Shown here: piece after piece, positions 1,405-18,974 of the stretch
How positions within the stretch are numbered: the first letter of the stretch is position 1
Layout of the letters: each line of letters opens with the position of its first letter
From: a bacterium
Lineage (GTDB): Bacteria > Verrucomicrobiota > Verrucomicrobiia > Limisphaerales > UBA11358
DNA: 38,872 nucleotides
Assembly: GCA_021780375.1 (NCBI GenBank)
Contig: JAJXYT010000190.1
Span: forward strand, 1 to 38,872
Direction of reading: 5' to 3'
Translations under genes and position numbers: made by a program
Notes under the pieces: model-generated
Told to the model about the DNA's origin: nothing
Databases searched by the model: none
The model's input: only the letters and a program-made list of their open reading frames with translations

Positions 1405-1432
1405 TGAGCCGGCAGGGGCGAAAAAGTCACAA
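1405..1432 (-). promoter_or_regulatory. ECF-type promoter motif, copy A (peroxiredoxin)
   Basis: Read on the minus strand: TTGTGAC, 14 nt, CGGCTCA. It matches copy B at 23 of 28 positions and copy C at 21 of 28 without gaps. Conservation is concentrated in the two outer heptamers, as expected for -35 and -10 elements of an ECF sigma factor. The -10 end is 56 nt before the peroxiredoxin ATG. Confidence 0.55.
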
Positions 1433-1633
1433 TCCGCCGGCTTCAAAATTTCGCCGGTCGGTTTCATGTTTTACTTTTCTGGTCCAATGCGGAACAAAAC
1501 GTTTCTCACCCTCCCATTGCCGGCGGGCGGCGCGGCTTTCGGCGCGGGCGCGTTGGCGCCTTTCAGCGGGCTGAAACTGGCCTGGGCTAGATGGCCCTTG
1601 CCGATGGCCCCGATGCATTGCACCGGCTGGCCG

Positions 1634-1652
1634 GCCACAGCCCGGCTGTGGC
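1634..1652. terminator. Short GC-rich hairpin after ilvD
   Basis: GCCACAGC and GCTGTGGC form a perfect 8-bp stem around a 3-nt loop. It lies about 100 bp beyond the ilvD stop in the direction of transcription. There is no T-run on either side, so it is a weak candidate terminator or an mRNA 3'-end structure. Confidence 0.3.
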
Positions 1653-1753
1653 AGGCGTTTCCGGAGATTTTCCGCCCGGCGGGCGTCGGGACAGTCTTGG
1701 AATTTTAAAAATAACGGGAACTGCCGTCTGACGTTGCCGGCAATTCGCCTGAA

Positions 1754-4024
1754 TCAGTCGCCTTGCCAGAGCACGCCGCCCTGGCTGGCGTTGCCGACCA
1801 TTTTCTGGTAGCGGGCCAGCCAGCCGGCGAGTGAACGCTTGACCGGCTGGAAGGATTTTTTGCGTTCCGCCAGTTCGGCTTCCGACACGCCAATGTCCAT
1901 GCGGCGGTTCGGAAAATCAATCCGCACGCGGTCGCCGGCCTTGAGCAGGCCGATCGGGCCGCCTTCCGCCGCTTCCGGCGAGACGTGGCCGATGCACGCG
2001 CCGGCGGTGCCGCCGCTGAACCGGCCGTCCGTGATGAGCGCGACTTTGTCACCCAGGCCCATGCCGACGATGTAGCTGGTCGGCGAGAGCATCTCTTGCA
2101 TTCCGGGGCCGCCGCGCGGGCCTTCGTTGCGAATGACGACCACGCCGCCGGCCTTGACCTTGCCGGCGAGGATGCCGTCGCAGGCTTCCTCCTGGCTTTC
2201 GAAAATCACGCATGGGCCTTCAAATACAAAGTCCGCGCCGCAGTTTTGTTTGAAGGCGGCACTGATGCCGGCGGTTTTGACCACGCTGCCTTCGGGCGCG
2301 AGCTGGCCGTAGAGAATGGCCAGCCCGCCGTCGGGCGAATAAGCGGTGGCTTGGGTGCGGATGCAATCGTTCGCGTCAAACCGGAACGCGGAATCGTAGG
2401 GCATCAGCCCGGAAGGCAGGGCGTCGTTGAGGGGCGTCGCGCGGGTTTCCACGTAGGCTTTCGCGATGAGGCCGCGGCGGAACCGGGAGACGCGCCACAG
2501 GCAGGAACGGTTTTTGGCGCCGCCGGCGTATTGCCACAGCAGCAGGACGGGCGTGCCTTTGAGCGCGGCCAGTTCCGCGCGGATCAGGCCTTTGGCCTGC
2601 TGAAATTGTTCGTTCAGCCAGGACTGAAGTTCCGTCCGGCCTTTGAGCATTTTGTCCGGCGCGGCCTGCCATTCCACGTCTTCGGCGCAACCGGCCAGCA
2701 GCGCTTCGGTTTCACCGGCGTTCCAGGCGGCGGCCGCGCGCCAGAGCGCCACGGCCCGTTCATCCGCCGGAAGAAACAGCAGCGGTTTGGGCGCCAGATT
2801 GCCGCCCGGCGTGCGCGCGGCTGCGCCCAGTTTGTCGTTGGGGTCAAGAACAATGGCCGAAGCGCCGGAGACGCGCACGACTCCGGCTGCCGGCGCGCAT
2901 TGTTCCGAACGCACGTCCCATTCATCAATGTTTTCGCCGAGGGTTTTGCCCGTGGCGGTTTTGCAGTCTGCGTTCAAAAGACCGGCGCGTTTCAGTTCGC
3001 CCAGAATCGTATGGATGCCGCCGGCGCGATGAACGTCCTGCAAATGGTATTGGGACGAGGGCGAGACTTTGCACAGGCACGGCACGCGCCGGGAAATGGC
3101 GTCAATGCGGGCGATGTCGTAGGCCAGGCCGGCTTCGCGCGCGATGGCCAGCGTGTGGAGAATGGTGTTGGTGGAACCGCCCATCGCCACGTCCAGCGTG
3201 AGCGCGTTGTCGAAGGCTTCCGGCGTGGCGAGGTCGCGCGGTTTCAGGTCCAGTTCCACCAGCCGGAGAATCTGTTGTGCGGCCCGGCGGTAAAGGCTCT
3301 CGCGCTCCTTGGAGACGGCCAGAATGGTGCCGTTGCCGGGCAAGGCCATGCCGAGCGCTTCGCACAGGCAGTTCATGGAATTGGCGGTGAACATGCCGGA
3401 ACAGGAACCGCAGGTCGGACAGGCGGTTTGTTCGAGCTTTTTCAAATCGGCCTCGGTGATTTTGCCGGACTGCAACTCGCCGACGGCCTGGAAGACGGAA
3501 ATGAGGTCGGACGACTTGGCCGCCGGCTGGAGATGCGCGGGAAGATCAGCTTGCGTGGTCGTTTGTTCGGCAATCCCTGCGGCCATCGGCCCGCCGCTGA
3601 CGAAGAGGGTCGGGATGTTGACGCGCATCGCGGCCATCAACATGCCGGGGATGATTTTGTCGCAGTTCGGAATGCAGACCATGCCGTCGAAGCAATGCGC
3701 CCGGATCATGGACTCCACGCAGTCGGCGATGAGTTCGCGCGAGGGCAGTGAATACTTCATGCCGCCGTGGCCCATGGCGATGCCGTCGTCAATGCCGATG
3801 GTGTTGAAGATGAACGGCACGCCGCCGGCCTCGCGCACCAGGCGTTTGACCAGCAGGCCCACCTCGTTCAGATGGGCGTGGCCGGGGATGCAATCGGTGT
3901 AGCTGTTGCAGATGGCGATGAATGGTTTGTTGAAATCGTCCTCGGACTCGATGGCGCCGGTGGCGCGGAGCAGGCTGCGGTGTGGCGCGCGTGCGGCGCC
4001 GGTTTTGATCAGGTCAGAGCGCAT
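1754..4024 (-). CDS. ilvD: Dihydroxy-acid dehydratase with an internal NTF2/SnoaL-like domain
   Basis: Dehydrates 2,3-dihydroxy acids to 2-keto acids in valine, leucine and isoleucine synthesis; an Fe-S enzyme. Family landmarks are intact: [11 protein letters not shown] (39-49), [16 protein letters not shown] (74-89), [10 protein letters not shown] (119-128), [17 protein letters not shown] (202-218), AMGGSTNT (280-287), VHRAGG (331-336), DGGLAILYG (565-573), [15 protein letters not shown] (632-646) and TDGRFSGGT (665-673). At 756 aa it is far longer than the roughly 560-620 aa usual for the family. The excess lies between about residues 390 and 545, where residues 423-530 (positions about 2435-2758) read as an NTF2/SnoaL-like fold: [18 protein letters not shown], a DVEW strand, GRTEL, and a final [16 protein letters not shown] hairpin. 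The frame is open throughout, so this is a fusion and not a frameshift. The ATG at 4024 gives the normal family N-terminus. Confidence 0.93.
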
Positions 4025-4114
4025 AAGAAAGGAAGGTTGAATTCACAAAAACAAAATTTTTACCACGATTTTCCGCAATGTCACGCTTCAGGTTCAGCCG
4101 GAATTAACATTCAG

Positions 4115-4756
4115 TCATGCCGTCGGAAACCGGGCGACCAAAACTTCCTCGTGGCAGCCTTTGCCCAGACGGATGGCCAGGCCGCGTTTCCGCAAAAATT
4201 TTTGCAGGTCGCGGAACAAGTGCGGCTCGCGGAGGTGCGTCTTGCCTTCGGCCCGATGCGCGCGGGCCATGTTTTGAAAACCGCGCGGGCTGAAATCGGC
4301 GAGCACCAGTTTGCCGCCGGGTCTGACTACGCGCAGCATCTCTTCCAGCACCGGTTCAAACTCGCGGATGTGGTGCATGGCGTTCATCGTCACCACGGCG
4401 CCAAAGCTGCGATCCGGCCATGGCAGACGGGCGGCGTCTTGCAGAACAAACTTGATCCGGTCTTCCACACGAAAATACCGGGCGTTGAGCCGCGCGTATT
4501 CTTGTTCCTCCGGCGAAATGTCCACGGTCGTGATGTCGGGGACGTGTTGGGCCAACTTCACCAGAAACCGGCCCTTGCCGGTGCCGATTTCGAGCACGGG
4601 ATTTTCCAGCGGCAGCGCCTGCTTCAACACAAACGCGATACCAGCCTGCAAATCGCAACCGAACTGGCGCAGATGGGCATCCCGTTTGAGTAATTGTTTA
4701 TGGTGGGCGAGTACTGCCGGATTGCGGGCAGACGACTTCATGCAGGACAAGGGCAT
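4115..4756 (-). CDS. Class I SAM-dependent methyltransferase
   Basis: A soluble 213-aa protein with a Rossmann methyltransferase fold. VLEIGTGKGRFL is motif I (the SAM-binding loop), TTVDIS the acidic end of strand 2, DAARLPWPDRSFGAVVTMNAMHHI the Methyltransf_11 motif II/III region, and LRVVRPGGKLVLADF the post-motif strand. The substrate cannot be inferred. An internal ATG (residue 6, position 4741) is an alternative start. It lies 90 bp before ilvD and may be transcribed with it, though the products have no obvious link. Confidence 0.82.
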   Translation of the reverse strand: MPLSCMKSSARNPAVLAHHKQLLKRDAHLRQFGCDLQAGIAFVLKQALPLENPVLEIGTGKGRFLVKLAQHVPDITTVDISPEEQEYARLNARYFRVEDRIKFVLQDAARLPWPDRSFGAVVTMNAMHHIREFEPVLEEMLRVVRPGGKLVLADFSPRGFQNMARAHRAEGKTHLREPHLFRDLQKFLRKRGLAIRLGKGCHEEVLVARFPTA

Positions 4757-4891
4757 TGATTTAATTTTCTTACTTCAGCAAAACCCCACTGTTTTATCAC
4801 AGGTCAGCCAGACGCGGCAAACTTTGATGGTGTTCCAATTTTTGTTGCATTTCACGAAATCGAGCCGCCAGGCTGAGGGCGAAGCCGAACG

Positions 4892-5356
4892 TCAGTAAAT
4901 CCAGGGGATAAATCGCCGCACCCGCTGCTCGTAGCCGGTATAATCCGGGAATTGCTCGCGCAGCCAACGCTCTTCGTGCCGGGCCTTCGCGTCCAAAAAA
5001 ATTCCCATCACCAACGAAATGAACGAGGCCGGCCAGCTTTGCCAGACAAACGACCAACCCAGGGCGGCACAAAAGACGGCAGTGTAGAGTGGATGCCGAA
5101 TCAAAGCATAAATTCCGCGCCGGACAAACCGGGTGGTGGCGGATGGTTTGGGGAAGGGCGTCAGGTTTCGTCCCAAAGCCAGCAATCCGGCGAGGCCACA
5201 AATTGCGGAAACCGTGAAAAGGACCAGACCCGCGATGAACATTGCCGGCGGCTCTGAGGTTGCCCGGCAGAGAATGCCCAAAATTCCAATGGCAAAGAAA
5301 AGCAGGGTTTGTCCAACTACCCACCAGCCACCGCGTTGGACAAAACCACTACTCAT
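4892..5356 (-). CDS. Isoprenylcysteine/phospholipid methyltransferase-like membrane protein
   Basis: A 154-aa integral membrane protein of the ICMT/PEMT type. Hydrophobic segments sit near residues 9-28, 36-60 and 90-115. The C-terminal signature includes RGIYALIRHPLY and EERWLREQFPDYTGYEQRVRRFIPW, which in this superfamily bind SAM and the methyl acceptor. The substrate is unknown. I place the start at the ATG at 5356, because there the codons overlap as ATGAGTAG with the stop of the upstream methyltransferase, which suggests translational coupling. An in-frame ATG at 5419 would overlap that gene by 71 nt and add a non-membrane leader. Confidence 0.8.
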   Translation of the reverse strand: MSSGFVQRGGWWVVGQTLLFFAIGILGILCRATSEPPAMFIAGLVLFTVSAICGLAGLLALGRNLTPFPKPSATTRFVRRGIYALIRHPLYTAVFCAALGWSFVWQSWPASFISLVMGIFLDAKARHEERWLREQFPDYTGYEQRVRRFIPWIY

Positions 5357-5951
5357 TTCGACGGGCGAGAATTTGCACCACGGCGCCGCGACCGGCATGT
5401 CCGCCGCCTTCGGTGACATCGCGCTCGAGCTCGCGCCCCATCAGCAATTCCAATCCCGAAAGTTCGTCGCGGAGAGCGGCCAGGGTCATGAGCAATCCGG
5501 GCGATCTCGGCCCGCCGGTGTCGAATGCCAATTGTGCCGGCGTGTAGGCTTCGAGAATAAAAACTCCACCGGGTTGAAGACCCGCCACCACTTCGCGATG
5601 TACCCGGCGCCGCAAGTCCGGCGGCAGGTGCGCGAAGGTCGCGATGATGCCCGCCCACGCGCCGGCCTTGATGGCATAATCGGCGAGATCGGTTGCCAGC
5701 GTTTCGATTTCCACACCGCGCGCTTTGGCCAGGCGCCGGGCCTTGGCCAAACCGACCTCCGATTGGTCCACGGCGGTCACGCGGTGGCCGAGCGTGGCGA
5801 GATGAACGGCATTGCGTCCCTCGCCTTCGGCCAGGCACAACACCGGCCCGGCGGGAATTTGCGGCGCAACTTCCGCCACGAAGGCGTTGGGCGCCTCGCC
5901 ATAAACATGGCCGGCGACAGCGTAGCGGTTATTCCAGAAGGAAACATCCAT
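5349..5951 (-). CDS. Class I SAM-dependent methyltransferase, TehB-like
   Basis: A 200-aa cytoplasmic methyltransferase. It opens with FWNNRYAVAGHVYGEAPNAF, typical of the small TehB-like/thiopurine-methyltransferase-like group. Motif I is VLCLAEGEGRNAVHLA (residues 38-53), strand 2 is VTAVDQS, and LQPGGVFILEAYTP follows the catalytic region. Relatives act on tellurite, selenite, thiols or small metabolites; nothing here fixes the substrate. It overlaps the membrane methyltransferase downstream by 8 nt, so the two are translated as a unit and may modify related substrates. Confidence 0.82.
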   Translation of the reverse strand: MDVSFWNNRYAVAGHVYGEAPNAFVAEVAPQIPAGPVLCLAEGEGRNAVHLATLGHRVTAVDQSEVGLAKARRLAKARGVEIETLATDLADYAIKAGAWAGIIATFAHLPPDLRRRVHREVVAGLQPGGVFILEAYTPAQLAFDTGGPRSPGLLMTLAALRDELSGLELLMGRELERDVTEGGGHAGRGAVVQILARRNE

Positions 5952-6057
5952 ACGACAGGGTACACAAAATTCGTCTTACTCGGCAACCGGATGCGTTTGA
6001 AAAGCTTGTTGGCAACGAGCGATGAGATGAGGAAGCTCCTCCCAAGCCGCGAGGGCA

Positions 6058-8268
6058 TCAAGGCAGAAGCTGTGTGCGATAGAATTCCCGGGGTGGAGTA
6101 TTGGTAATGCTGCGGGACCGGATCAGATAAATCGTTCCCGAGGCATCAAACAATTCCAGTGAAGCTTTCGTGGCCCAGAAACCGGCACTCAGATTGGTTG
6201 AGGATTGAAATTCAAAAAACTGGTCGGGTTCGCCGCCAAACAGGAACAGTTCATACGCCGTCGCCGTGAAATTGGTATGAGTGACCGTTACGTTGGTGCT
6301 GGTCACGAGGACCTGGTCGTACCCTAAAAAATTCACGGGGGTCAGGTCAGACACGATTTGATTGCGCAGCACGATGCCTTCGATGCCCGCAATCACCAGT
6401 TGTCCGTCCGAGACGGCGGCGCTGTAAAGCGACTTGATGGTTGGCACCGGCAAGGGAGTCCAATTGGCGAGATTGGTGCTGGACAGGAGCAAACCCTGGT
6501 TGCCGACGATAAACCAGGTCCCGGCCAGGAACGCCGCGTCATTCAGCCAGCGGGTGGTGCCGGTGGTTCGCGCGGTCCAATTCGTGCCGTTTTCGCTCGT
6601 GTAAAGGGCGCCGTTCTGTCCGAGCACCAGCAGTTGGTTGCCCAACCAGCGCACGCGATAAAGCCAGTTGGTCGTACCCAGGCTGATCCCGGTCCAACCG
6701 GCGGCATCGGGACCGGAACGCAAAAGCGTGCCGCGATTGCCCGCCGCAATCCAACCGCCAGGGAAAGGGGTCACGCTGGAAAGAAAATTGGCGGTCGGCG
6801 CAGCCCGCTTCACCCAGTTCGAGCCATTGCTGCCGGTAAAGATGCTGCCAAAGTCGCCGCACAGCACGAAAATGTCGTCGCTGGCCGCCACGCCTTGCAG
6901 CGAATTGGTGGTGAAGGCGGGCAGATTGGTCCAGATGACGCCGAGGGTGTCAAAGACGGTGTTGGTAATGATGAGGTTTGTCCCGAGGACATTGGTTATC
7001 ATGAGATTGGTCAGTCCGGCGCGGCTGATCAGGACGTTGCCGGCATTGCCAACGGCCAGCAGCAGATTGGTATTGCCTCCCACGCCCAGCAAGACGGTGT
7101 TCGTGTGGGACACCGGCGCCATTTCCCTGGCCCATAGAATGCCGTCGAGGCTTGTCAGTATGGTTGCCAGGTCACCAACCGCAGTGAAGGCGCCTTGCTG
7201 CACACGCACGTCCCAGAGCCAGGCGTGGGAAGAATCCGGCATCGGCTGCCACGCATATTCGCCGGTGCCGCTGTCGCGGTTGCCCTCCACCAGCAATCCG
7301 GTGCGGCCGGCCGCGAGAAAAGTATTCGAGAAACCGCCCGCCGAAAGATACATCCAGGCCGGCGGCGCATTGGAGGCCAATCCAGTGATTTGATTGGTCC
7401 AGGTGGTCGTGCCGGCGGCGCGAAAACGCAATTCCTGGTCGCCGGCAATCAAAACACCGGTGTCATTGAGGGCCACATCAAACAAATTGTTCGTCGTGCC
7501 GCTGTTTGATGAAACCCACCCCGAACCTCCGGTCGGGCTGCTCGACACCACCCCGCCGTTGCCAACGGCCATGAATGCACTCTCGCTGTCATTGCTCAGG
7601 TAACGGACCCGGTTCAAATGCGCCGTGGTCCCGCTGGCAATCCGGTTCCACGAAGCCGCCCCGCTGCCTTGCAGAATCGTTCCATTCTCGCCGACCGCGA
7701 CAAATGTCCCGCCGCCAAACGCCACCCCGCGCAGCCATTCGGTCGTGCCGGAGGTTGTTTTCGTCCAACTCGTCCCGTTGGTGCTCGTGTAAATTGAACC
7801 GTTGTCGCCAACCGCTACGGCGCGTTGGGCCGAAGCGGCCACGCCTTCAAACCAGTCCAATGTGGCGGGTGAGAGTTCGGCGGGTTGAAAAACTTTCCCG
7901 TCATCGGACCAGAGAATGCAGCCGTTCTCGCCGGTCACAATGAACCTGTCTCCCATCAAAGCCACGCCGCGAAGATAATTTGTTGCCCCGGTCACGGCGG
8001 GCGCCCAACGTCCCCCGTCGCGTTGGACATAGACTGTGCCCGCATCACCCACCTGCACGGCGAGGTTGCTTTTTACCAGCATGTCCAGAACGTTATTGCC
8101 GTGAGGCAACGGGTTGGACCACCGCCAGCGTTCGCCGTCCACTTCCACCGCCGTTGCATTCAGGTAAAGGCAGGTGAACAGAACCCAAAGCAACGGAAGG
8201 CAATTGAACCGGGGGCCGGACGGTTTAAGCAAGGGCACAGGCGAAGGCCGGCGGGAGTTGACGGTCAC
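6058..8268 (-). CDS. Exported Ycf48-like beta-propeller repeat protein
   Basis: About 736 aa made almost entirely of repeats of the form TxWLxxVxxxxxxFxAVGxxGxIxxSxxGxxW, the blade motif of Ycf48/photosystem II assembly-factor-like and sialidase-type propellers. At least nine blades can be recognised. The C-terminus (FQSSTNLSAGFWATKAS...EFYRTQLLP) is a domain often seen at the end of large secreted Verrucomicrobiota proteins. I use the GTG at 8268: it puts a positively charged stretch directly before the hydrophobic segment CLPLLWVLFTCLYLNATA, a plausible signal peptide. The open frame extends to an ATG at 8427, but that stretch runs through a perfect terminator-like hairpin. Probably secreted or cell-surface; ligand unknown. 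Confidence 0.75.
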   Translation of the reverse strand: MTVNSRRPSPVPLLKPSGPRFNCLPLLWVLFTCLYLNATAVEVDGERWRWSNPLPHGNNVLDMLVKSNLAVQVGDAGTVYVQRDGGRWAPAVTGATNYLRGVALMGDRFIVTGENGCILWSDDGKVFQPAELSPATLDWFEGVAASAQRAVAVGDNGSIYTSTNGTSWTKTTSGTTEWLRGVAFGGGTFVAVGENGTILQGSGAASWNRIASGTTAHLNRVRYLSNDSESAFMAVGNGGVVSSSPTGGSGWVSSNSGTTNNLFDVALNDTGVLIAGDQELRFRAAGTTTWTNQITGLASNAPPAWMYLSAGGFSNTFLAAGRTGLLVEGNRDSGTGEYAWQPMPDSSHAWLWDVRVQQGAFTAVGDLATILTSLDGILWAREMAPVSHTNTVLLGVGGNTNLLLAVGNAGNVLISRAGLTNLMITNVLGTNLIITNTVFDTLGVIWTNLPAFTTNSLQGVAASDDIFVLCGDFGSIFTGSNGSNWVKRAAPTANFLSSVTPFPGGWIAAGNRGTLLRSGPDAAGWTGISLGTTNWLYRVRWLGNQLLVLGQNGALYTSENGTNWTARTTGTTRWLNDAAFLAGTWFIVGNQGLLLSSTNLANWTPLPVPTIKSLYSAAVSDGQLVIAGIEGIVLRNQIVSDLTPVNFLGYDQVLVTSTNVTVTHTNFTATAYELFLFGGEPDQFFEFQSSTNLSAGFWATKASLELFDASGTIYLIRSRSITNTPPREFYRTQLLP

Positions 8269-8384
8269 GTTAAAAATCTCCGTCTGCCACGCTTTTAATG
8301 GCAATCTCAGGGCCACGGTTTTTTGCTCCGGGAGGACAAGCAAGGCGAGTTCTGCGGAATGATCGGGAAAATCCGGCAGGCAGA

Positions 8385-8422
8385 AACCTCCAGGCGGCCT
8401 GAATGATTGCTGCCTGGAGGTT
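8385..8422 (-). terminator. Perfect 11-bp hairpin after the Asp/Gln/Arg-rich gene
   Basis: AACCTCCAGGC and GCCTGGAGGTT pair exactly around a 16-nt loop, 19 bp past the stop of the 8442-8906 gene. On the minus strand the stem is followed by TCTG rather than a long T-run, so it is a probable but not classical terminator. It also argues against translation starting at 8427. Confidence 0.6.
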
Positions 8423-8441
8423 CTCATGACGTCAATTTTCT

Positions 8442-8906
8442 TTAATCATCACCGCGACGTTCACGATCCTGGGCTTGTTCGCGCGCCTGTTCCATCAATT
8501 CCTGATGGCTCGGCAGGCATTCACGCAATTCCTGCAACCGGTCACGCAACTGTTCCCGGTCCCGGACTTGATCCTGGATGCTGTCGCGCAGTTGATCGCG
8601 GAGCTGGTCACGTTCCTGATCGGTCACCCCGGCGAGTGTCTTGGCTTTTTCCTGCTTTTGCTGTTGATACTGTTCCCGCGCCTTTTTCATGTCCTGCACC
8701 GCCTGCTGAACTTCAGTGGGCAGGCTTTGGTGCAGCCGGGTGCGATCCCGTTCCAGATCGGGGCTGCAATCCTGCAACCGGTCTTGATCGCGCACCTGGT
8801 CCTGCAACTTGTCCTGGTCTCCCTGGGCGGTGCCTTGGGCCAGCGCCGCAACCGTTCCGCAAGCCAGCGCGGCCATCATTGTTACCATCAGTCTGGTGGT
8901 TTTCAT
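8442..8906 (-). CDS. Exported Asp/Gln/Arg-rich coiled-coil protein
   Basis: A 154-aa protein of no family I recognise. Residues 1-23 are a clear Sec signal peptide ending ALAQG. The mature part is extremely rich in Asp, Gln, Arg and Glu, with DQxRD-type repeats near residues 30-50 and 95-130 and almost no aromatics beyond one tyrosine. It looks like a long charged helix or coiled coil in the periplasm. Two cysteines (in LQDCSPD and RECLPSH) could form a disulfide. AAGGA precedes the ATG at good spacing, and a near-perfect sigma-54 promoter lies about 50 nt upstream. Its place directly after an NtrC-type kinase/regulator set makes it the likely target of that system. Confidence 0.75.
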   Translation of the reverse strand: MKTTRLMVTMMAALACGTVAALAQGTAQGDQDKLQDQVRDQDRLQDCSPDLERDRTRLHQSLPTEVQQAVQDMKKAREQYQQQKQEKAKTLAGVTDQERDQLRDQLRDSIQDQVRDREQLRDRLQELRECLPSHQELMEQAREQAQDRERRGDD

Positions 8907-11719: not shown

Positions 11720-11732
11720 GAGCTGCGATGGT

Positions 11733-13184
11733 TCAGGACTCGTCCGGTTTACGGGTTTCAGTTGGATTTTCCAGCTTCTCTTTGCGGTCGCCGTGAAGCC
11801 GATAGCGGACGAAATCGCGGGTGACCCCCAGCAACCGCGCCGCGCGCGAAATATTTTCGCCGGACTGGCGCAAGGCCAGTTGCAGCAGCCGGTTCGTGGC
11901 GTCTTCCAGCGCGAACCCTTCTTCCGGAAACACAAAGTGCGAATTCAACCAATCCGGCGGCGGAGCGGCTTTTTCGCCGGATACCGCATCCGCCGATAGA
12001 TGTGAAAAATCCAACGCCGCCGCATCCTCAAACACCAGCGCCCGCTCCAATTCATGGGCCAGTTCCCGCACATTGCCGGGCCAGCGACAGGCCAGCAACC
12101 GGCGCCGGCCGGCCTCGGTGAACCGCCGGGGCGGCAGACGGTGCCCGCGGCAAAGCTGGGACATGAGATGCTCGGCCAATCCAATGATGTCCTCCCCGCG
12201 CTCGCGCAACGGCGGCAGATTGACGCGATACAAATCCAAGCGATGCAGCAGGTCTTCGCGGAAGTCGCCGGATTCGACGGCCGCCCAAAGGTCGCGGCTG
12301 GTCGCGGCGATGATGCGCACGTCCACCTCAATCTGACGGTTCCCGCCGAGCCGGCGGATTTTCCGGTCTTCCAACGCGGTCAAAATCTTGGCCTGCAACG
12401 CCGGGGACAGGCTTGGCAGTTCATCCAGAAACAACGTGCCGCCGTGCGCCGCTTCGAAGAGGCCTTGCCGCGCCGAGCGCGCGTCGGTGAACGCGCCGCG
12501 TTCGTGTCCGAACAATTCGGATTCCGCCAGCGACTCGGGCAGCGCCGGACAATTGATTTCAATCATCGGCTGCGCCATGCGCGGCCCGTGCCGGTGCAGC
12601 CAGCGGGCCAGGCTTGATTTGCCGGTTCCGGTTTCGCCGATGATGAGCACGGGCGGCAGGCGGGTTTGCAACCGTTGATCAGCGGCAATGATTTTTTCCA
12701 ACTGCTGCCGCAACGGCGCCAGCGATTCGCCAAAAAAGAAATTCGCGTCCGGGTCGGCCTGGCGCAAATGTTCGGCCACGCGCGAAGCTTGCCGCGCCTG
12801 GCGTGCGCGCCGCATCACCAGCGGCAGCACGGCGGGATCAAACGGCTTGACCAAATAATCCACGGCGCCCAGACGCATGGCCTCGACGGCATCCGCCACC
12901 GCGCCCTCCGCCGTCATCACCACCACGCCGGTTGTGGAATTAAAAGCGCCTGCCCGCAACAGCTCCATGCCCGAACCATCGGGCAAATGCACGTCCAGCA
13001 GGACGAAGTCAAACTCCAATCCATCGAGCAGATGGCGTGCGGCCGCGATAGTGTCGGCGCCGGTCACATCGGCCCCCAACGCTTCGAGATGCGCCGCAAG
13101 CCGCCGGCGCAAAAGAGATTCGTCATCCACGACCAGGACGCTTAAACCGGCGAGTGATTTTTCCATCTGACCATCCATAAGCAC
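11733..13184 (-). CDS. Sigma-54-dependent response regulator, NtrC family
   Basis: 483 aa in three domains. The receiver (about 13-125) has DD at 20-21, the phospho-acceptor Asp64 in LLDVHLPDG and Lys113 in VKPF. The AAA+ domain (about 150-385) has Walker A GETGTGKS (183-190), LFLDE Walker B (251-255) and the sigma-54 contact loop as GAFTDA (230-235), where the commonest form is GAFTGA. The C-terminal Fis-type helix-turn-helix reads NISRAARLLGVTRDFVRYRLHG. It activates sigma-54 RNA polymerase when phosphorylated, presumably by the kinase at 9102-10541. The perfect sigma-54 site at 8955-8970 is the obvious local target. An ATG at 13166 is an alternative start. Confidence 0.93.
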   Translation of the reverse strand: MLMDGQMEKSLAGLSVLVVDDESLLRRRLAAHLEALGADVTGADTIAAARHLLDGLEFDFVLLDVHLPDGSGMELLRAGAFNSTTGVVVMTAEGAVADAVEAMRLGAVDYLVKPFDPAVLPLVMRRARQARQASRVAEHLRQADPDANFFFGESLAPLRQQLEKIIAADQRLQTRLPPVLIIGETGTGKSSLARWLHRHGPRMAQPMIEINCPALPESLAESELFGHERGAFTDARSARQGLFEAAHGGTLFLDELPSLSPALQAKILTALEDRKIRRLGGNRQIEVDVRIIAATSRDLWAAVESGDFREDLLHRLDLYRVNLPPLRERGEDIIGLAEHLMSQLCRGHRLPPRRFTEAGRRRLLACRWPGNVRELAHELERALVFEDAAALDFSHLSADAVSGEKAAPPPDWLNSHFVFPEEGFALEDATNRLLQLALRQSGENISRAARLLGVTRDFVRYRLHGDRKEKLENPTETRKPDES

Positions 13185-13220
13185 AACGCAAACCCGTCCA
13201 ACATGATGAAACTGGCTAAC

Positions 13221-13361
13221 TTACAACACAGGATAAACCAGGCGCGCTGATTTTTCCAAGATTACTTTTCGACCGCTACAATTTATCATTGCCTTCAACC
13301 GCTCATGGCGGTGTGCTGCAGGCGATACGATCCGGTCAGGTTGCATCCGTGAAAACTGCAT
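13221..13361 (-). CDS. Candidate 46-aa small protein or leader peptide
   Basis: An ORF starting at the ATG at 13361, five nt after a perfect GGAGGT (13367-13372), the strongest ribosome-binding site noticed in the window. The ECF-like motif copy B ends 22 nt before the ATG, almost the same distance as for the anti-sigma gene. The product (MQFSRMQPDRIVSPAA..., one cysteine, basic) matches nothing I know. It ends 36 nt before the NtrC-type gene, so it could be the first gene of that operon or a regulatory leader. Composition alone would not support it; the promoter and ribosome-binding site do. Confidence 0.4.
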   Translation of the reverse strand: MQFSRMQPDRIVSPAAHRHERLKAMINCSGRKVILEKSARLVYPVL

Positions 13362-13383
13362 TGCATACCTCCACGCCGAACAC

Positions 13384-13411
13384 TGAGTCGAGAGGGGCGA
13401 AATAGTTACAA
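13384..13411 (-). promoter_or_regulatory. ECF-type promoter motif, copy B (small ORF and NtrC operon)
   Basis: Read on the minus strand: TTGTAAC, 14 nt, CGACTCA. It starts about 20 bp after the stop of the histidine kinase gene and points toward the 46-aa ORF and the sigma-54 activator. It shares 23 of 28 positions with copy A, including most of the spacer (CGCCCCT). Confidence 0.55.
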
Positions 13412-13431
13412 CTCAGACGGCACAGGCTGCT

Positions 13432-14511
13432 TCAAAGACCAGAAATCTGGCGAACCACTGCGGGATGTGCCCCGTCGGGGGAATCGGGAGCAGGCAATTG
13501 GAGTTGCGACCAATAAAAACGGCCGCGACGACAACGAAAGCGCGCGCCGGGCATTTGCTGTGCGAAGGCGCTCACCAGCCGCAACCCGATTCCGAGCCCT
13601 GCCGCCGGCCGGGGAAGCGGTTGCGCCGCGCGGTTGCCGATCAGGATGCGGACGCCCTGCCCGCGCAGTTTGACCCGCAGTTGGATATTGCCGACGCCGT
13701 GCCGGAGCGTGTTGTTGAGCAGATTGAAAAGGATTTGCTTCAGCGCAGCGCGATCAGCGCGCACCGCCAGACCGGCGGGGCAGGACCAGAGCAGCTTCCG
13801 GCCTTCGGCTTCCGCCAGGCGGCCAAAGGGTTCGAGGTTGTCGGCGAGGAATGCCCTTAAGACAATGGTTTCGGACGCCAGTTCGAGGCGGCCCTGTTCG
13901 GCGCGGGCAATCGCCAGCGCCGTCTCCACGTAGTTCGACAGCCGCGCGATTTCCTCCTGCAATTCTTCGGCCAAGGCCGGGTCCATCGTGGCGGCGTTGG
14001 CTTCAATGCGCAGCCGCATCAATTGGAGCGGCGTGCGCAGTTCATGCGCGACCTGCGCGGTGTAACTTTGCAGATGGGCGAATGAAGTTTGCAGCCGGCC
14101 CAGCAATTCGTTGAAGTGCTGCACCAGTTGGCCGATTTCCGGGTCGGTGTCGGGCGCCTGGATCTGCTGCGAAAGCGTGGCCGCCTCAAGCCGGTCCAAC
14201 TGCTGGTTGATCTGTTGTACCGGCCGGGTCGAGCGCCGCGCGATGAAATACGCCGCGGTCAGCGCCAGGCCGACCAGCGGCACGCCGACCAGCAGCCAGA
14301 ATTGCGCCAGTTCGCCGAGGATGTCACGCACTTCCTGGTCCGTGAAGCTGCCGTGCAGCACCCAGTCCGGCTGGGACGGACGCGTGTGCTCCCATTTTTC
14401 CAGACGCAACTCGTGGTCGAGATGCCAGAGGGCCGATCCCATCAACGCGACCACGACCACCAGCAGGCTGACGGCAAACCAGAGCGTGAGACGCCAGCGC
14501 AGGGATTTCAT
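13432..14511 (-). CDS. HAMP-type sensor histidine kinase
   Basis: 359 aa, classical OmpR-partner kinase. TM1 (about 9-28), a short periplasmic loop of about 40 residues, TM2 (about 70-90), a HAMP linker (RRSTRPVQQINQQLDRLEAATL), HisKA with VAHELRTPL as phosphorylation site, and HATPase_c with NLLNNTLRHG as N-box. The glycine boxes are reduced: GNRAAQPLP replaces the usual DxGxG G1 box and GLGIGLRLV is G2, so ATP binding may be atypical. ATGA at 14508-14511 overlaps the stop of the response regulator gene, showing a translationally coupled pair. The signal is unknown; rubrerythrin upstream hints at redox stress. Confidence 0.9.
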   Translation of the reverse strand: MKSLRWRLTLWFAVSLLVVVVALMGSALWHLDHELRLEKWEHTRPSQPDWVLHGSFTDQEVRDILGELAQFWLLVGVPLVGLALTAAYFIARRSTRPVQQINQQLDRLEAATLSQQIQAPDTDPEIGQLVQHFNELLGRLQTSFAHLQSYTAQVAHELRTPLQLMRLRIEANAATMDPALAEELQEEIARLSNYVETALAIARAEQGRLELASETIVLRAFLADNLEPFGRLAEAEGRKLLWSCPAGLAVRADRAALKQILFNLLNNTLRHGVGNIQLRVKLRGQGVRILIGNRAAQPLPRPAAGLGIGLRLVSAFAQQMPGARFRCRRGRFYWSQLQLPAPDSPDGAHPAVVRQISGL

Positions 14512-15188
14512 GGCGTGTCCGGCGCGGCGAGGGCAAATCCCACCCCGCGCACGGTGCGGATGAGCGAGGGTTCGCCCGCAAGGTCAATTTTGGAACGGAG
14601 GTAGTTGATATAGACATTGACGACGTTGGTGCCGCCGTCGAAATGCTGGTCCCAGACGTGTTCGACAATCGCCGTTTTGGAAACAGTCCTGGGCGAGGCC
14701 TGGGCGAGAAATTCCAACAGGGCAAACTCGCGGTTGGTCAGCTCAATCTCCCGTTCACCGCGGCGGACTTTGCGCGAGGCCAGGTCCAGTTCCAGATCAC
14801 CGACGCGCAACTGGTGGCTCGTTCCGCCGCGCTGCCGCCGGTGCAAGGCGCGCAAGCGGGCGAGCAGTTCGTCCAGCGAGAAAGGCTTGACCAGGTAATC
14901 ATCCGCCCCGGCGTCCAGTCCGGCCACGCGGTCGCGCACTTCACCGCGGGCGGTGATAAGAATGACGGGCACCGTCACGCCGCGCCGGCGCAAGCCGCGC
15001 ACCAGCGTCATCCCGTCCAGTTGCGGCATCATGATGTCGAGCGCCAGCGCGTCGTAGTTGTTGTTTTCCGCCGCCCAACGCGCCTCGGCGCCATCCTGCG
15101 CGCAATCCACGGTGTGCCCGGCTTCACGCAGTCCGGCGGCGAGATGACGCAGCAATTTCAGGTTGTCTTCCGCCAGCAGAATTTTCAT
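14508..15188 (-). CDS. OmpR/PhoB-family response regulator
   Basis: 226 aa. The receiver domain starts MKILLAEDNLKLLRHL; the phospho-acceptor Asp is in ALDIMMPQLDG and the conserved Lys in LVKPFSLDELLARL. The C-terminal winged helix (from about 125) contains ELTNREFALLEFLAQ, VVNVYINYLRSKID and IRTVRGVGFAL, the standard OmpR DNA-binding signature. The ATG at 15188 gives a normal N-terminus; upstream in-frame sequence runs into the DUF2231 gene and is not family-like. Partner of the kinase at 13432-14511. Confidence 0.93.
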   Translation of the reverse strand: MKILLAEDNLKLLRHLAAGLREAGHTVDCAQDGAEARWAAENNNYDALALDIMMPQLDGMTLVRGLRRRGVTVPVILITARGEVRDRVAGLDAGADDYLVKPFSLDELLARLRALHRRQRGGTSHQLRVGDLELDLASRKVRRGEREIELTNREFALLEFLAQASPRTVSKTAIVEHVWDQHFDGGTNVVNVYINYLRSKIDLAGEPSLIRTVRGVGFALAAPDTP

Positions 15189-15261
15189 GGCCGCAGTGCG
15201 GGTCGTTTCACCGCCCATTCTGCCAGCAATGCCGACGCAAGAAAACTCCAAAGCCACGGCG

Positions 15262-15792
15262 CTAATCCGGTTCCGCGGCGCCCCGGGTTTGCCGGGTGGA
15301 CGCAACGTCCGCCGCGCCTTCACCCGGCGTGGCCGGAGCAGTAACAGTGACACCAACTCCATGACGGAAGACCAGCGCTCCGCCGCGATGACCTGTCTGG
15401 TAAAGCGCATAACTGGCGAGACTGGCGATCAGCGCCGTGGCGACGGCAACCGCTCGCGCGATTCGCGGGAAGCGAAATAACCAGACCGAGGCGATCCCCG
15501 CCACCGCGGCGATGGCGGCCAGGGTCAGGGTGTGTTCGGCCCAGTCTTGATGTTCATCGAGCAACGCTGCGGCTTGCGGCGACAGGTTTTCGGCCAGGCC
15601 GCCATCGGACTTCCCGGTTTCAACCGCGGCCCAGGCGCCGAGCGCGCCCAGAGTGAGCAAGGCCGCTCCCAGAACGGGGGCGTGATGCTTGCGCCAGAAC
15701 ACGGCCACAAACGCCACGAAGGTTCCCAGCAGGATCAGGACGACCGGGAAATGAATAATCGCCGGGTGCAAGGGATCGGGAATAGCAGGCAT
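15262..15792 (-). CDS. DUF2231-type membrane protein
   Basis: 176 aa with four predicted transmembrane helices (about 12-32, 40-56, 88-106, 112-130). It opens with IPDPLHPAIIHFPVVLILLG; the paired histidines in HPAIIHFP are the hallmark of DUF2231 proteins, for which heme or redox roles have been suggested but not settled. The C-terminal 40 residues are Ala/Thr/Gly-rich and probably disordered. GAGGT precedes the ATG. It lies 38 bp after the exported rubrerythrin and 73 bp before the OmpR-type regulator, so the four genes may form one transcript. Confidence 0.75.
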   Translation of the reverse strand: MPAIPDPLHPAIIHFPVVLILLGTFVAFVAVFWRKHHAPVLGAALLTLGALGAWAAVETGKSDGGLAENLSPQAAALLDEHQDWAEHTLTLAAIAAVAGIASVWLFRFPRIARAVAVATALIASLASYALYQTGHRGGALVFRHGVGVTVTAPATPGEGAADVASTRQTRGAAEPD

Positions 15793-15830
15793 AAGGACCT
15801 CACAATCAGTGTGGGTTGACGGGGTTATGA

Positions 15831-16439
15831 TCAGTCAATCAGCTCGTAGTTGCTTACGGGTTCCCGGCAGGACGGGCAGTTTTTGGCAGGCAAGGTGGTG
15901 GTCGTGTAACCGCAGACCTTGCAGACGTAGATGGGCACATCCGCCTGCTTGCCCAGGTTGTCGAGCGCGGCCTGGTAGAGCCTGGCGTGCTCGGTTTCAG
16001 CCTTCTGCGCATAAACGAACGTGCGCACGGCTTCCTTGGCCCCGTCTGCCTTTGCCAGGGCGAGGAACTCAGGATACATGGTGTCGCGCTCGTAACTTTC
16101 ACCCTTGATGGCGGCCTGGAGATTTTCAGCCGTGGTGCCGACCTTGACTTCGTCCAGCTTGAAGTCATTGATCTTTCCACCCAGGGCAAGGATGGCCTGC
16201 TTGTGGCTTTCCCGGTGAATGGACTCAGCCTTGGCCGCCGCGCGGAAGAGACGGGCCACATAGGCGTTACCATCGGCCTGGGCCTGCTTGGCGAACGCTT
16301 CGTAGCGGTGGGCTGCGTTGGATTCGCCCTGGAAGGCGGCGTTCAAATTGTCGAGCGTCTTTTGCGAGACTTTCGCCTGCGCGGGGATAACCGCCGCAAT
16401 GACTGCGGCGCCAATGAGCGTCATGAAATAGTTTTTCAT
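15831..16439 (-). CDS. Exported rubrerythrin-family protein
   Basis: 202 aa. Residues 1-22 form a signal peptide (MTLIGAAVIAAVIPAQA), unusual because rubrerythrins are normally cytoplasmic. The ferritin-like di-iron domain keeps its ligands: Glu39 in GESNAAHR, Glu72 and His75 in AESIH, Glu114 in GESYE, Glu148 and His151 in AETEH. The C-terminal rubredoxin-type zinc/iron ribbon has Cys173-x2-Cys176 and Cys188-x2-Cys191. Rubrerythrins reduce hydrogen peroxide, so an exported copy would act on peroxide in the periplasm, with an electron donor not evident here. It is the first gene of a possible rubrerythrin-DUF2231-regulator-kinase operon. Confidence 0.92.
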   Translation of the reverse strand: MKNYFMTLIGAAVIAAVIPAQAKVSQKTLDNLNAAFQGESNAAHRYEAFAKQAQADGNAYVARLFRAAAKAESIHRESHKQAILALGGKINDFKLDEVKVGTTAENLQAAIKGESYERDTMYPEFLALAKADGAKEAVRTFVYAQKAETEHARLYQAALDNLGKQADVPIYVCKVCGYTTTTLPAKNCPSCREPVSNYELID

Positions 16440-16472
16440 AGCGGCGACAGATTACCCGCCCGGCCGTTAGAA

Positions 16473-16487
16473 AATCGTTAAACGATT
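16473..16487. promoter_or_regulatory. Palindrome upstream of rubrerythrin, candidate operator
   Basis: AATCGTT-A-AACGATT, a 15-bp palindrome with 7-bp arms, flanked on both sides by GTTAG (16466-16470 and 16488-16492). It is centred about 40 bp before the rubrerythrin ATG, where a repressor or activator site would sit. It could also be the binding site of the OmpR-type regulator; nothing identifies the protein. Confidence 0.35.
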
Positions 16488-16621
16488 GTTAGAATTTTCC
16501 AATCAAAACGATGCAAGACCGCTTCGGCGGGCGTTCACTGCAAAGGTGATGCGCTTGCGGGTTAGCCGGCGGTTCCCAAGGCGCCTCCATGCGGATCAGA
16601 CTGGCACAACGATCCGCCGGG

Positions 16622-16783
16622 TCAGTGTTTCCGGACCATCCGCAGCATTTTGATGTTGAGCACCACGAACCGGAAAAACTGCCAGAGCAGATTCGTGCGC
16701 ATCCGTTTCGTGAACGGCGTGGGCACCGGCGGATAAAAACTTTGTTCATAAGGCCGGCGTTCGGTTTTTGAAGGTTCGATCAT
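16622..16783 (-). CDS. 53-aa conserved-looking small protein after the SQR-like gene
   Basis: Starts at the ATG at 16783, seven nt after AAAGGAG, 26 bp after the stop of the SQR-like gene. The sequence has a YEQSFYPPVPTPFTKR segment followed by a hydrophobic/basic helix (NLLWQFFRFVVLNIKMLRMV). My impression, not checked, is that small proteins of this shape recur beside SQR-like flavoproteins; it may tether or stabilise the enzyme at the membrane. In-frame sequence before 16783 overlaps the SQR gene and is not used. Confidence 0.65.
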   Translation of the reverse strand: MIEPSKTERRPYEQSFYPPVPTPFTKRMRTNLLWQFFRFVVLNIKMLRMVRKH

Positions 16784-16809
16784 GGCAGGTTCTCCTTTCG
16801 CGGCAAAAG

Positions 16810-18267
16810 TCATTCCGGCACGACGCGCCAGAATGGATTGGCCCTGGCTTTGTAAATGAAACCGAAGTGCAGCAGGTGCTTGATCCAATGGCCGGCCAAT
16901 CCGATTTCACCGGTGGTGTAACGCAACGCGCGGCCGGTTTCCGGATAGGTCTGAAAATCCGGCACGATGGGATACATCGTCATGGCCACGGCGGTGCCGT
17001 TCCAGAAACTGTTGCCGGCGGACGCGATGCACGCCGCGCCCATCCTGGCCAAAGAGGCCTGCCGCGTCGGAACCTCGCTGCGGCCCTGCATCATGTCGGT
17101 GATGTTGAACGCCACCTGCCGGGCCATGACCCCGGACGGCATCCCGGTGCGCGGCGGCGCCGGAAATATCGGCGTGCCTTTCGGACTGGTCATGGGCTTG
17201 GAAATCGCGTGCGGCGGCGCAAAGGCAATGCCGACGGCGAAGATGTTTTTGTATATTGGACTCTGGTAAGTGCTCGGCCAGTCGCTCGGCAGCCATTGGT
17301 CGTAAGGTTTCGGCTCGTAATTGCCGTCCACGAGCATGAATCCACTTTTGGCAAACATCGTCGCGGTGATGTCAGCGCCTTGCTTGTCAAACGCCTTGAG
17401 GCCCACGCCGGCAAACGGCGGCAAAAGCATGGCGAAATCAAACGACACGGTTTTTTCCTCGCCGTCGAGGGTTTCATACAAAATGGTGTTCGGGCCGACT
17501 TCCTTGACGTGCGCCCGCGTGATCCACTTCACGCCGCGCTCGGTGTAGAGCGATTCGGTGAAAATGCGCGAGTGCGTGATGTAACCGCCGCGTTTGATAT
17601 GCATGCCGCCAATGCCGAAATCGCCCAGCTCCTGTTCGTTGGAGATCCAGACGAGGTTCGCCTTGTCGCGCACCTTGCGCCGGCGCAACTCAAATTCCAC
17701 GTTGAACAGATATTCAAAGGCCGCGCCCTGGCAGGTGCAGGTGCCGTGGCCCGTGCCAATCACCAGCGTCTGCTTCTCACCGCGTTGCATCCGCGCGACC
17801 GCTTCATCCAGCGCTGTGGCGGCGTGGGCCGCGTGATCGTAAGTGCACACCGACTGGCTGTGGTGCAGCGGTCCCAGGCCCGGGGTCGCGTCAAAATTCA
17901 ACTTCGGCCCGGTCGAGTTGATGAGATAGTCGTAGGTGACGATTTCCTGCCGGCCCTTTTTCTCCGGCGAGGTGTGCTCGATGGTCACGAACGGCTTCGG
18001 TTGCCCGGCGCTTCCCTCCGGATGGAGGCTGATGGCCTTGGCCTGGTAATGGCTGATGCCTGTTTTGCGGTAAACCGGCGCCAGTGGAAACGTCACCTGT
18101 TCCGGTTTCATCAGCCCGACGCCGACCCAGATGTTCGACGGAATCCAGTTCCACAAACTGTTGGGCGTGACGACCGCGACCTCGTGGCTGCCGCCCAATC
18201 TTTTTTTCGCGTGCAGCGCGGCCGTTTGGCCGGCGATGCCGCCGCCGAGAATGAGCAGACGAGCCAT
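16810..18267 (-). CDS. Sulfide:quinone oxidoreductase-like flavoprotein
   Basis: 485 aa. LLILGGGIAGQTAALHAKK is the N-terminal FAD-binding motif, YDYLINSTGPKL the second motif, and IFAVGIAFAPP the C-terminal FAD motif. Cysteines lie at 141 (SVCTYDH), 177 and 179 (GTCTCQGAAFEYL) and 413 (GAACIAS). SQRs use cysteines near 129, 160-178 and 350; here the third is absent from the AVGIAFAPP region, so it is a divergent SQR or a related sulfur or NADH dehydrogenase. The C-terminus has amphipathic, aromatic-rich stretches (HWIKHLLHFGFIYKARANPFW) suited to membrane docking. AAAGGA precedes the ATG. It lies 26 bp after a rhodanese gene, which supports oxidation of sulfide or polysulfide at the membrane. 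Confidence 0.85.
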   Translation of the reverse strand: MARLLILGGGIAGQTAALHAKKRLGGSHEVAVVTPNSLWNWIPSNIWVGVGLMKPEQVTFPLAPVYRKTGISHYQAKAISLHPEGSAGQPKPFVTIEHTSPEKKGRQEIVTYDYLINSTGPKLNFDATPGLGPLHHSQSVCTYDHAAHAATALDEAVARMQRGEKQTLVIGTGHGTCTCQGAAFEYLFNVEFELRRRKVRDKANLVWISNEQELGDFGIGGMHIKRGGYITHSRIFTESLYTERGVKWITRAHVKEVGPNTILYETLDGEEKTVSFDFAMLLPPFAGVGLKAFDKQGADITATMFAKSGFMLVDGNYEPKPYDQWLPSDWPSTYQSPIYKNIFAVGIAFAPPHAISKPMTSPKGTPIFPAPPRTGMPSGVMARQVAFNITDMMQGRSEVPTRQASLARMGAACIASAGNSFWNGTAVAMTMYPIVPDFQTYPETGRALRYTTGEIGLAGHWIKHLLHFGFIYKARANPFWRVVPE

Positions 18268-18293
18268 AAAGGTCCTTTCTATTTTTTCATGCG

Positions 18294-18662
18294 TTAATTT
18301 TGCCGGTTCAAAATGCTTTTCGCGCGGCCGTAGGAGCCGAGATTGAAGACGTTGGCATAGCCCATCGCTTTGAGGGCGCGCCGGGCGATGCCACTGCGCG
18401 TTCCGCTGAGGCAGTGCAGGAGTAAAACTTGATTTTTATCGGACACGCGGCGCGGCAGGCTGGTTTGCAGTTCGCCCAACGGAATGTTCACGGTCATGGG
18501 CAGATGCCCGGCCTGGAATTCCTGGGCGCTGCGCACGTCCACGACCAAAGCGCCTTCCTCCAAGTGCTTCCGCGCGGTCCCGACAGATACCAATCCCAGG
18601 CGTTTTAAACCCAGGAACACGGCCAAAACCAGGCCGATAATCAAAATGGAACTCCAGCTCAT
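18294..18662 (-). CDS. Membrane-anchored rhodanese-domain protein
   Basis: 122 aa: one N-terminal transmembrane helix (about 5-19) and a single rhodanese domain. The catalytic loop is HCLSGTRSG with Cys84 as the sulfur-accepting residue; VVDVRSAQEFQAGHLPMTVNIPL is the CH2A-type motif. Such proteins carry or transfer sulfane sulfur. Its ATG overlaps the stop of the anti-sigma gene (18659-18662), and SQR follows after 26 bp. This suggests a path in which SQR-made persulfide passes to the rhodanese. Confidence 0.93.
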   Translation of the reverse strand: MSWSSILIIGLVLAVFLGLKRLGLVSVGTARKHLEEGALVVDVRSAQEFQAGHLPMTVNIPLGELQTSLPRRVSDKNQVLLLHCLSGTRSGIARRALKAMGYANVFNLGSYGRAKSILNRQN

Positions 18663-18925
18663 GCCCGCCGCTTTCGATTTTCCGGTTTTTCGTGCGTTTC
18701 CTTCCAGCGTTGCCGCAGGGCGCCGTGGAGCCGTTCCCGGAACGGCACCGGCAAATCGTAGGGCTTGCCTTCCTTGTACAACGTGATGGTCTTGCGGATG
18801 TTGTCCACAACCACCTGACAGGGGTTGCAGCCGGCCATGTGGTGCTCAAAATCCGTGCAAACGGCGGGATCAATCGTGCCGTCCACGTATTCATTCAGCA
18901 TCGCCAACAGTTCTTCGCACTTCAT
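18659..18925 (-). CDS. Zinc-finger anti-sigma factor-like protein
   Basis: 88 aa, no transmembrane segment. MKCEELLAMLNEYVDGTI followed by HHMAGCNPCQVV (His29, Cys33, Cys36, with Cys3 or Cys23 as fourth ligand) is the zf-HC2/ZAS motif of redox- or zinc-sensing anti-sigma factors. The C-terminal half is basic and charged. The start at 18925 gives the standard ZAS N-terminus; upstream in-frame sequence is translated repeat DNA. The gene follows the ECF sigma gene by 176 bp and has its own ECF-like promoter. Inference: it holds the neighbouring sigma factor until its cysteines are oxidised or persulfidated. Confidence 0.88.
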   Translation of the reverse strand: MKCEELLAMLNEYVDGTIDPAVCTDFEHHMAGCNPCQVVVDNIRKTITLYKEGKPYDLPVPFRERLHGALRQRWKETHEKPENRKRRA

Positions 18926-18946
18926 GGTGTGTCGTATTGATCCGTT

Positions 18947-18974
18947 TGAGCCGCCAGCTCCAAAAAGGTTACAA
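18947..18974 (-). promoter_or_regulatory. ECF-type promoter motif, copy C (anti-sigma, rhodanese, SQR operon)
   Basis: Read on the minus strand: TTGTAAC, 14 nt, CGGCTCA, ending 21 nt before the anti-sigma ATG. It shares the outer heptamers with copies A and B while its spacer differs, as expected for a promoter under selection at -35 and -10 only. Confidence 0.6.

Follow-up and report, generated by a model that had tools for sequence, protein, structure and literature searches.

Why does a single stretch of a verrucomicrobial genome carry three copies of a 28-bp motif, TTGTRAC-N14-CGRCTCA, and what reads them? The stretch (hereafter the window) comprises all 38,872 nucleotides of contig JAJXYT010000190.1 (GenBank assembly GCA_021780375.1), from a bacterium of the order Limisphaerales in the phylum Verrucomicrobiota. 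The original prediction took the copies for promoters of an extracytoplasmic function (ECF) sigma factor, expected before thiol and sulfur genes. It was found that the motif tracks a gene pair for an ECF sigma factor and an anti-sigma factor across the genomes of the order, which supports the promoter reading at the level of sequence comparison. Quite probably, a single ECF sigma factor uses all three copies as promoters. The most likely candidate is the product of the gene at 19102-19752, for which a model with an RsrA-like thiol sensor is proposed. The features on which this reading turns are as follows.

1405..1432, minus strand: site 1, putative ECF-type promoter; exact match, weight-matrix score 31.2, outside the training set
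13384..13411, minus strand: site 2, putative ECF-type promoter with unclear target; exact match, weight-matrix score 28.4, outside the training set
18947..18974, minus strand: site 3, putative ECF-type promoter between the sigma and anti-sigma genes; exact match
18662..18925, minus strand: predicted anti-sigma gene, 88 amino acids, zf-HC2 (Pfam zf-HC2 36.4 bits on the longer open reading frame 18659-19105, cut-off 22.2)
19102..19752, minus strand: predicted ECF sigma factor gene, the proposed reader of the motif (Pfam Sigma70_r2 and Sigma70_r4_2; TIGR02937 116 bits, cut-off 42.9)

All three 28-mers were recovered on the minus strand with no mismatch. Their pairwise identities (23/28, 21/28 and 19/28) and the two variable positions outside the spacer were found to be correct when the copies were compared by eye. 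In the 4,010,597 bases of this genome (84.7% complete), the pattern has three exact matches, all in the window and on one strand, and the reversed pattern has none. The pattern itself comes from these sites, and the genome count alone is therefore no test. Mismatch-tolerant counts are at or below background, and the case therefore rests on the comparison with relatives.

Conservation of the motif with the anti-sigma gene

Is the motif conserved in other species? I searched 146 genomes of the order, this genome included. The anti-sigma protein has a match in 41 of them at E ≤1e-3, and in 35 the match is better than 1e-10. In all 30 anti-sigma loci that were fetched, the window locus among them, the motif precedes the ATG of the anti-sigma gene by 11-35 nucleotides and departs from the earlier pattern at 0 to 3 positions. 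The consensus of these 30 sites is TGTAAC-YTTT-N7-TSNYGGCTC, and the flanks hold little information. A weight matrix was trained on the 30 sites, which include site 3 and neither site 1 nor site 2. Site 3 scores 32.4, being part of the training set, while sites 1 and 2 reach the scores given above from outside it. The next best score elsewhere in the window is 7.1, and one strand of a 4-Mb Markov-random sequence holds no score of at least 18.

From a scan of named genomes, the best 80 of 103 loci were retained. Fifty-five of these lie outside the matrix training, with a few near-duplicates (e.g., L207/L209 and L240/L242), and 41 of the 55 score at least 20, at 13-24 nucleotides before the ATG counted from CTC. 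By my own count, verrucomicrobial taxa appear in 66 of the 80 locus titles, many of them subdivision 3 or Limisphaerales, and Planctomycetota groups are named in five (L227, L235, L236, L237, and L239). Members of the anti-sigma family are abundant, with 2268 protein clusters at E ≤1e-5. At 1e-12, the family was detected in two of 288 sampled genomes of the phylum, one of which is this genome.

The pattern TGTAACYTT-N12-GRCTC has 106 exact matches in 40 of the 146 genomes, versus 23 matches in 22 genomes for the reversed pattern. It is present in 33 of the 35 genomes with the anti-sigma gene versus 7 of the 111 without it (p = 1.6e-23 by a Fisher test that treats related genomes as independent). 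The reversed control shows no association (4/35 versus 18/111 genomes, p = 0.6). The sigma gene was found in 36 of the 146 genomes at E ≤1e-55, and two of the seven genomes with the motif and without the anti-sigma gene, G082 and G087, have it. Judged by these matches, the motif is almost confined to genomes with this sigma/anti-sigma pair. Thus, the expectation that relatives would carry the motif was borne out.

Form of the motif and the factor that reads it

Does the motif look like a promoter? The A-A-C of the presumed -35 element is present in 29 of the 30 training sites, and an AAC in the -35 element is typical of ECF promoters (PMC8103513). Counted from AAC, CGRC starts after 14 nucleotides and CTCA after 17. 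The SigH promoter of Mycobacterium tuberculosis is described as GGAA(C/T)A-16 nt-(C/G)GTT, a spacing of 17 nucleotides (PMC3489674). Because of this spacing, the CTCA end is more likely to be the -10 core than CGRC. The original prediction described fixed ends with a freer spacer. The ends are indeed conserved, while the 14-nucleotide "spacer" itself holds conserved bases. Among the 80 named loci, the distance from TGTRAC to the GRCTC-like element is 15 nucleotides in 64, 16 in six and 17 in one. Slack of one or two bases is within the tolerance of promoters, and the spacing thus fits a promoter. In a control stretch 300-390 nucleotides upstream, such an element pair occurs in one of 78 cases.

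The information is limited to the motif. In a profile of 148 sites filtered at 80% identity, no position in the 60 nucleotides upstream exceeds 0.1 bit. Where the labelled gene aligns from its start, 124 of 138 sites sit 0-60 nucleotides before the start codon, in keeping with the claim that the copies lie upstream of genes and point into them. In the window, two copies had been placed 21-22 nucleotides before a start codon, and the distances are indeed 21 nucleotides for site 3 and 22 for site 2. The motif is not equally common inside genes; open frames of at least 200 amino acids hold 31 of 86 exact matches versus 22 of 23 matches of the reversed pattern.

How are the sigma and anti-sigma genes arranged? 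The predicted sigma protein matches Sigma70_r2 (62.8 bits) and Sigma70_r4_2 (55.2 bits), and no sigma-1.1 or sigma-3 model is among its Pfam matches. Its gene is next to site 3 as had been claimed, ending 127 nucleotides before it, while the gene directly behind site 3 is that of the anti-sigma factor, not the sigma factor. In 21 of the 30 loci, both genes are on one strand and the sigma gene immediately precedes the anti-sigma gene. Positive autoregulation of an ECF sigma factor is described as common but not universal (PMC8103513). I scanned 400 nucleotides upstream of the sigma gene in 82 partly overlapping records, and the motif was found in none of them at a score of at least 15. Positive autoregulation of the sigma gene through the motif is therefore not supported.

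Several observations weigh against the proposed reading. With three mismatches allowed, the window holds eight matches versus 8.5 expected; with two, the genome holds 49 versus 78 for the reversed control; and the refined pattern with one mismatch gives six versus nine for its control. Fourteen of the 55 loci outside the training do not reach a score of 20; the spacing is shifted in some of them, and those with Planctomycetota titles carry a different -10 element. No recognisable element pair is found in nine of the 80 named loci. The putative -10 element is GGCTC or GACTC and not the usual CGT, although CGT is described as a hallmark restricted to a small early set (PMC8103513). Genomes G093 and G096 have the anti-sigma gene, and the exact pattern was not found in them. 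Site 2 lacks a conserved target, and COX1, CcoG-like, Usp, and other non-sulfur genes stand behind some sites. The best NCBIfam model for the anti-sigma protein is RsrA (TIGR03988), with a score of 32.2 bits, which is under the cut-off of 62.5. Further points concern the sigma gene, which is missing from the fetched stretch in eight of the 30 loci and lies downstream on the opposite strand in one. In addition, G003, G030, G062, G099, and G131 have the motif and neither of the two genes.

These last cases are what would be expected if the motif were an ECF promoter read by another ECF sigma factor of the genome, the adjacent one being a mere neighbor. Each genome has many sigma candidates (31 in a first look at this one), nine of the 30 loci have no sigma gene immediately before the anti-sigma gene, and G102 and G133 have the motif and the anti-sigma gene with no sigma match at 1e-55. 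On the other hand, the sigma gene and the motif co-occur across the order, and a sigma gene that is unlinked, as in G010, is still within the genome. This alternative is improbable. Less probable still is an operator, bound by a thiol or sulfur regulator and overlapping or following an ordinary promoter. The candidate regulon does resemble those described for CstR-type repressors (PMC9405070). However, the motif is asymmetric and has one direction relative to the gene in all labelled sites, its distance to the start codon is narrow, its internal spacing varies by one or two nucleotides, and no conserved promoter element is seen in the 60 nucleotides upstream. Coincidence or spread as a dispersed repeat, suggested by ten identical spacer bases common to sites 1 and 2 and by the background-level counts, can be dismissed, given the absence of shared sequence in the flanks, the excess of exact over reversed matches and the co-occurrence in the 146 genomes, the more frequent position outside long frames than in the control, and the conserved place before anti-sigma genes both in the training loci and outside them. 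Promoters of one ECF sigma factor, probably the adjacent one, remain the best reading.

Genes behind the sites

Which genes would such promoters control? The fetched loci contain 156 distinct sites. Behind 145 of them, the gene could be labelled by similarity to seed proteins, and 11 remained unlabelled. Since the seeds were taken from the same sites, the label totals describe the sites and are no enrichment test; since a locus was fetched if it holds the motif or lies by an anti-sigma gene, a sigma gene, or some other gene of the window, the shares should not be read as frequencies across whole genomes. The labels are anti-sigma (70 sites), YgaP-like (21), thioredoxin (17), rhodanese (7), DUF6132, YeeE-type, and CoA-disulfide reductase (4 each), peroxiredoxin and "LGWNN" protein (3 each), and C_GCAxxG and MauG (2 each). 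TusA, ferritin-like, Usp, COX1, CcoG-like, methyltransferase, YeiH-type, and DUF4405 genes stand behind one site each. Family names are those of Pfam and NCBIfam except for "LGWNN", which has no family match, and the provisional name "CcoG-like". In my own grouping, a thiol or sulfur gene (YgaP-like, thioredoxin, rhodanese, YeeE-type, CoA-disulfide reductase, peroxiredoxin, C_GCAxxG, or TusA) follows 59 of the 86 sites that are not before an anti-sigma gene. Many sites of the expected kind thus exist. Beyond the window, this genome has three further sites (C44, C87, and C177, with matrix scores of 30.3, 37.0, and 31.8), each before a thioredoxin gene, and one of these genes is fused to DUF6132. 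The window itself has the following genes near the three sites.

641..1348, minus strand: predicted peroxiredoxin gene behind site 1 (Pfam AhpC-TSA and 1-cysPrx_C; NCBIfam PRK13189 316 bits, cut-off 211)
11733..13178, minus strand: predicted NtrC-type response regulator gene, about 200 nucleotides downstream of site 2 (Pfam Sigma54_activat and Response_reg)
13221..13361, minus strand: putative open reading frame of 46 amino acids read from the sequence, its ATG 22 nucleotides after site 2
15831..16439, minus strand: rubrerythrin-like gene (Pfam Rubrerythrin 88.1 bits)
16810..18267, minus strand: gene for an SQR-like oxidoreductase dependent on flavin adenine dinucleotide (FAD) (Pfam Pyr_redox_2 34.5 bits; weak NCBIfam SQR match, 42.8 bits, cut-off 525)
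18294..18662, minus strand: predicted rhodanese gene directly after the anti-sigma gene (Pfam Rhodanese 53.9 bits)

Site 1 lies 56 nucleotides before the ATG of the peroxiredoxin gene, and peroxiredoxin homologues in G021 (L137) and G039 (L118) are likewise preceded by the motif. Site 2 has a histidine-kinase gene before it and the 46-residue open reading frame, then the NtrC-type regulator gene, after it. As a promoter of the latter, site 2 was rejected; none of the 19 other homologues that were fetched (58-79% identical) has the motif in the 500 nucleotides before it. For the 281-bp region of site 2, no relative at the DNA level exists in the other 145 genomes. The rubrerythrin-like gene may or may not belong to the site 3 transcript.

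Several side observations were made. Between the sigma gene and site 3, positions 18980-19077 (minus strand) form a long hairpin of 7-nucleotide units such as AACATCG and AACATTC, with a minimum energy of -48.2 kcal/mol (z = -3.55). A 25-nucleotide unit taken from it has 30 matches in the genome at up to three mismatches versus none for the reversed control, some of them in tandem (C20:3050-3144); it is a dispersed intergenic repeat. A response-regulator gene (compare 13432-15410 of the window) recurs near the sigma/anti-sigma pair in the relatives L130, L136, and L161, with 45-47% identity and a histidine-kinase gene alongside in two cases. The SQR-like FAD protein is 87% identical in L130:1132-2586 and L137:851-2305, while the sigma proteins of these loci are 74-76% identical; this gap may reflect recent transfer or strong constraint. 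The "LGWNN" protein (L144:6674-7174; L113), with LGWNNLGMHCMDSDYSVFSILPPYNT near its start, is that found behind the motif in three sites, and the L144 copy has no match to a Pfam or NCBIfam family. One 23.6-kb contig (L133, which is G087:C548:1-19000, and L134) carries six exact copies of the refined motif, and the genes behind them include ferritin-like, Usp, COX1, and MauG genes. On the minus strand of L006, from about 1527, the open reading frame behind the motif opens like an anti-sigma protein (MKCEEIL) and continues with thioredoxin-like sequence. It may be a remnant or a fusion.

A candidate thiol-sensing switch

Could the anti-sigma protein sense thiols? An alignment of 68 sequences shows no variation at Cys3, His29, Cys33, and Cys36, and the ZAS zinc motif His-x3-Cys-x2-Cys is present. 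The Cys-His-Cys-Cys set is kept in 80 of the 80 named loci, in 79 by pattern and in L243 by eye; the 79 also match a pattern including Cys23, and L243 keeps the other four residues. A simple hydropathy scan of the window protein gave no membrane-like stretch. Matches to structures in the PDB are weak, with DdvA (E = 0.027) ahead of RsrA (5frf, E = 0.04), and Cys3 aligns with Cys11 of RsrA in the latter and likewise in a direct alignment with an RsrA sequence. By its model score, the protein does not qualify as an RsrA equivalog. Its mode of action may resemble that of RsrA, whose zinc ligands are reported as Cys11, His37, Cys41, and Cys44, with Cys11 required for redox release (PMC4960319).

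The best reading is that the ECF sigma factor with its RsrA-like thiol sensor would run a sulfur and thiol regulon together with its own anti-sigma gene. The 88-residue anti-sigma protein would bind zinc through Cys3, His29, Cys33, and Cys36 and, in its reduced state, keep the sigma factor bound. Once peroxide, disulfide, persulfide, or polysulfide has oxidized or sulfurated the thiols, zinc and the sigma factor would be released. The free sigma factor would then transcribe thioredoxin, rhodanese, CoA-disulfide reductase, YgaP-like, YeeE-like, and peroxiredoxin genes as well as the anti-sigma gene. Since the anti-sigma gene would belong to the regulon, the response would terminate itself once thioredoxin restores the thiols. 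The sigma gene itself would be transcribed from some other promoter. As to the signal, I infer from the genes that it lies in thiol, peroxide, and sulfane-sulfur handling. A link to respiration would instead be in line with the COX1 and CcoG-like genes, each of them behind a single site.

How does this compare with known systems? SigR-RsrA of Streptomyces coelicolor likewise consists of an ECF sigma factor and a small soluble Cys-His-Cys-Cys zinc anti-sigma factor (PMC4960319), and thioredoxin genes are among its reported targets (PMC3961337). It differs in the promoter, which is GGGAAT...GTTG for SigR (PMC3489674) and TGTAAC...GGCTC here; the GGAAT/GTT form of the SigR/SigH regulon does not describe the present sites. 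Other differences are the anti-sigma score below the cut-off of the RsrA model (32 versus 62.5 bits) and the prominence of sulfur-transfer genes here. In Corynebacterium glutamicum, housekeeping promoters are described for sigH, while rshA alone has a SigH-controlled promoter, and disulfide-stress and thioredoxin genes are SigH targets (PMC3489674). The wiring proposed here, with a sigma-dependent promoter for the anti-sigma gene only, therefore has a precedent. The promoter sequence and the sulfur content of the regulon differ from those of SigH-RshA, and its heat-shock, SOS, and proteasome genes were not seen among the labelled genes here. Sigma-E of Escherichia coli has its role in envelope stress, and its anti-sigma factor sits in the membrane. 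Its promoters (GGAACTT, TCAAA) resemble the motif in a -35 AAC followed by T's and a -10 TCA (PMC2893595, PMC4890791), while TGTAAC with a GC-rich GGCTC is found here. The reactive-sulfur regulators CstR, SqrR, BigR, and FisR have targets that overlap with the present gene set. CstR controls a CoA-persulfide reductase in Enterococcus, in an operon reported to include rhodaneses (PMC9405070), and multiple cysteines serve as the sensor in such regulators (PMC9774590). In contrast to the candidate sigma/anti-sigma pair, they are DNA-binding regulators, of CsoR or ArsR type in the case of CstR and SqrR, and the main text of the review PMC9774590 uses neither "sigma factor" nor "anti-sigma" as a term. 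Among the titles listed by literature searches, none deals with this motif or regulon.

A bolder and rather doubtful possibility is that the switch is dedicated to reactive sulfur, with a zinc-thiol site opened by persulfide or polysulfide and a regulon (rhodanese, TusA, CoA-persulfide-reductase-like, YeeE- and YgaP-like membrane proteins, and the SQR-like enzyme) that clears or routes sulfane sulfur. If true, it would be the sigma-factor counterpart of CstR and SqrR in Verrucomicrobiota, and a persulfide trigger would add sigma/anti-sigma pairs to the known modes of bacterial reactive-sulfur sensing. The motif recurs in many related, mostly uncultured bacteria, and it offers a precise putative promoter code and a candidate redox-sigma regulon for bacteria known mostly from assembled metagenomes.

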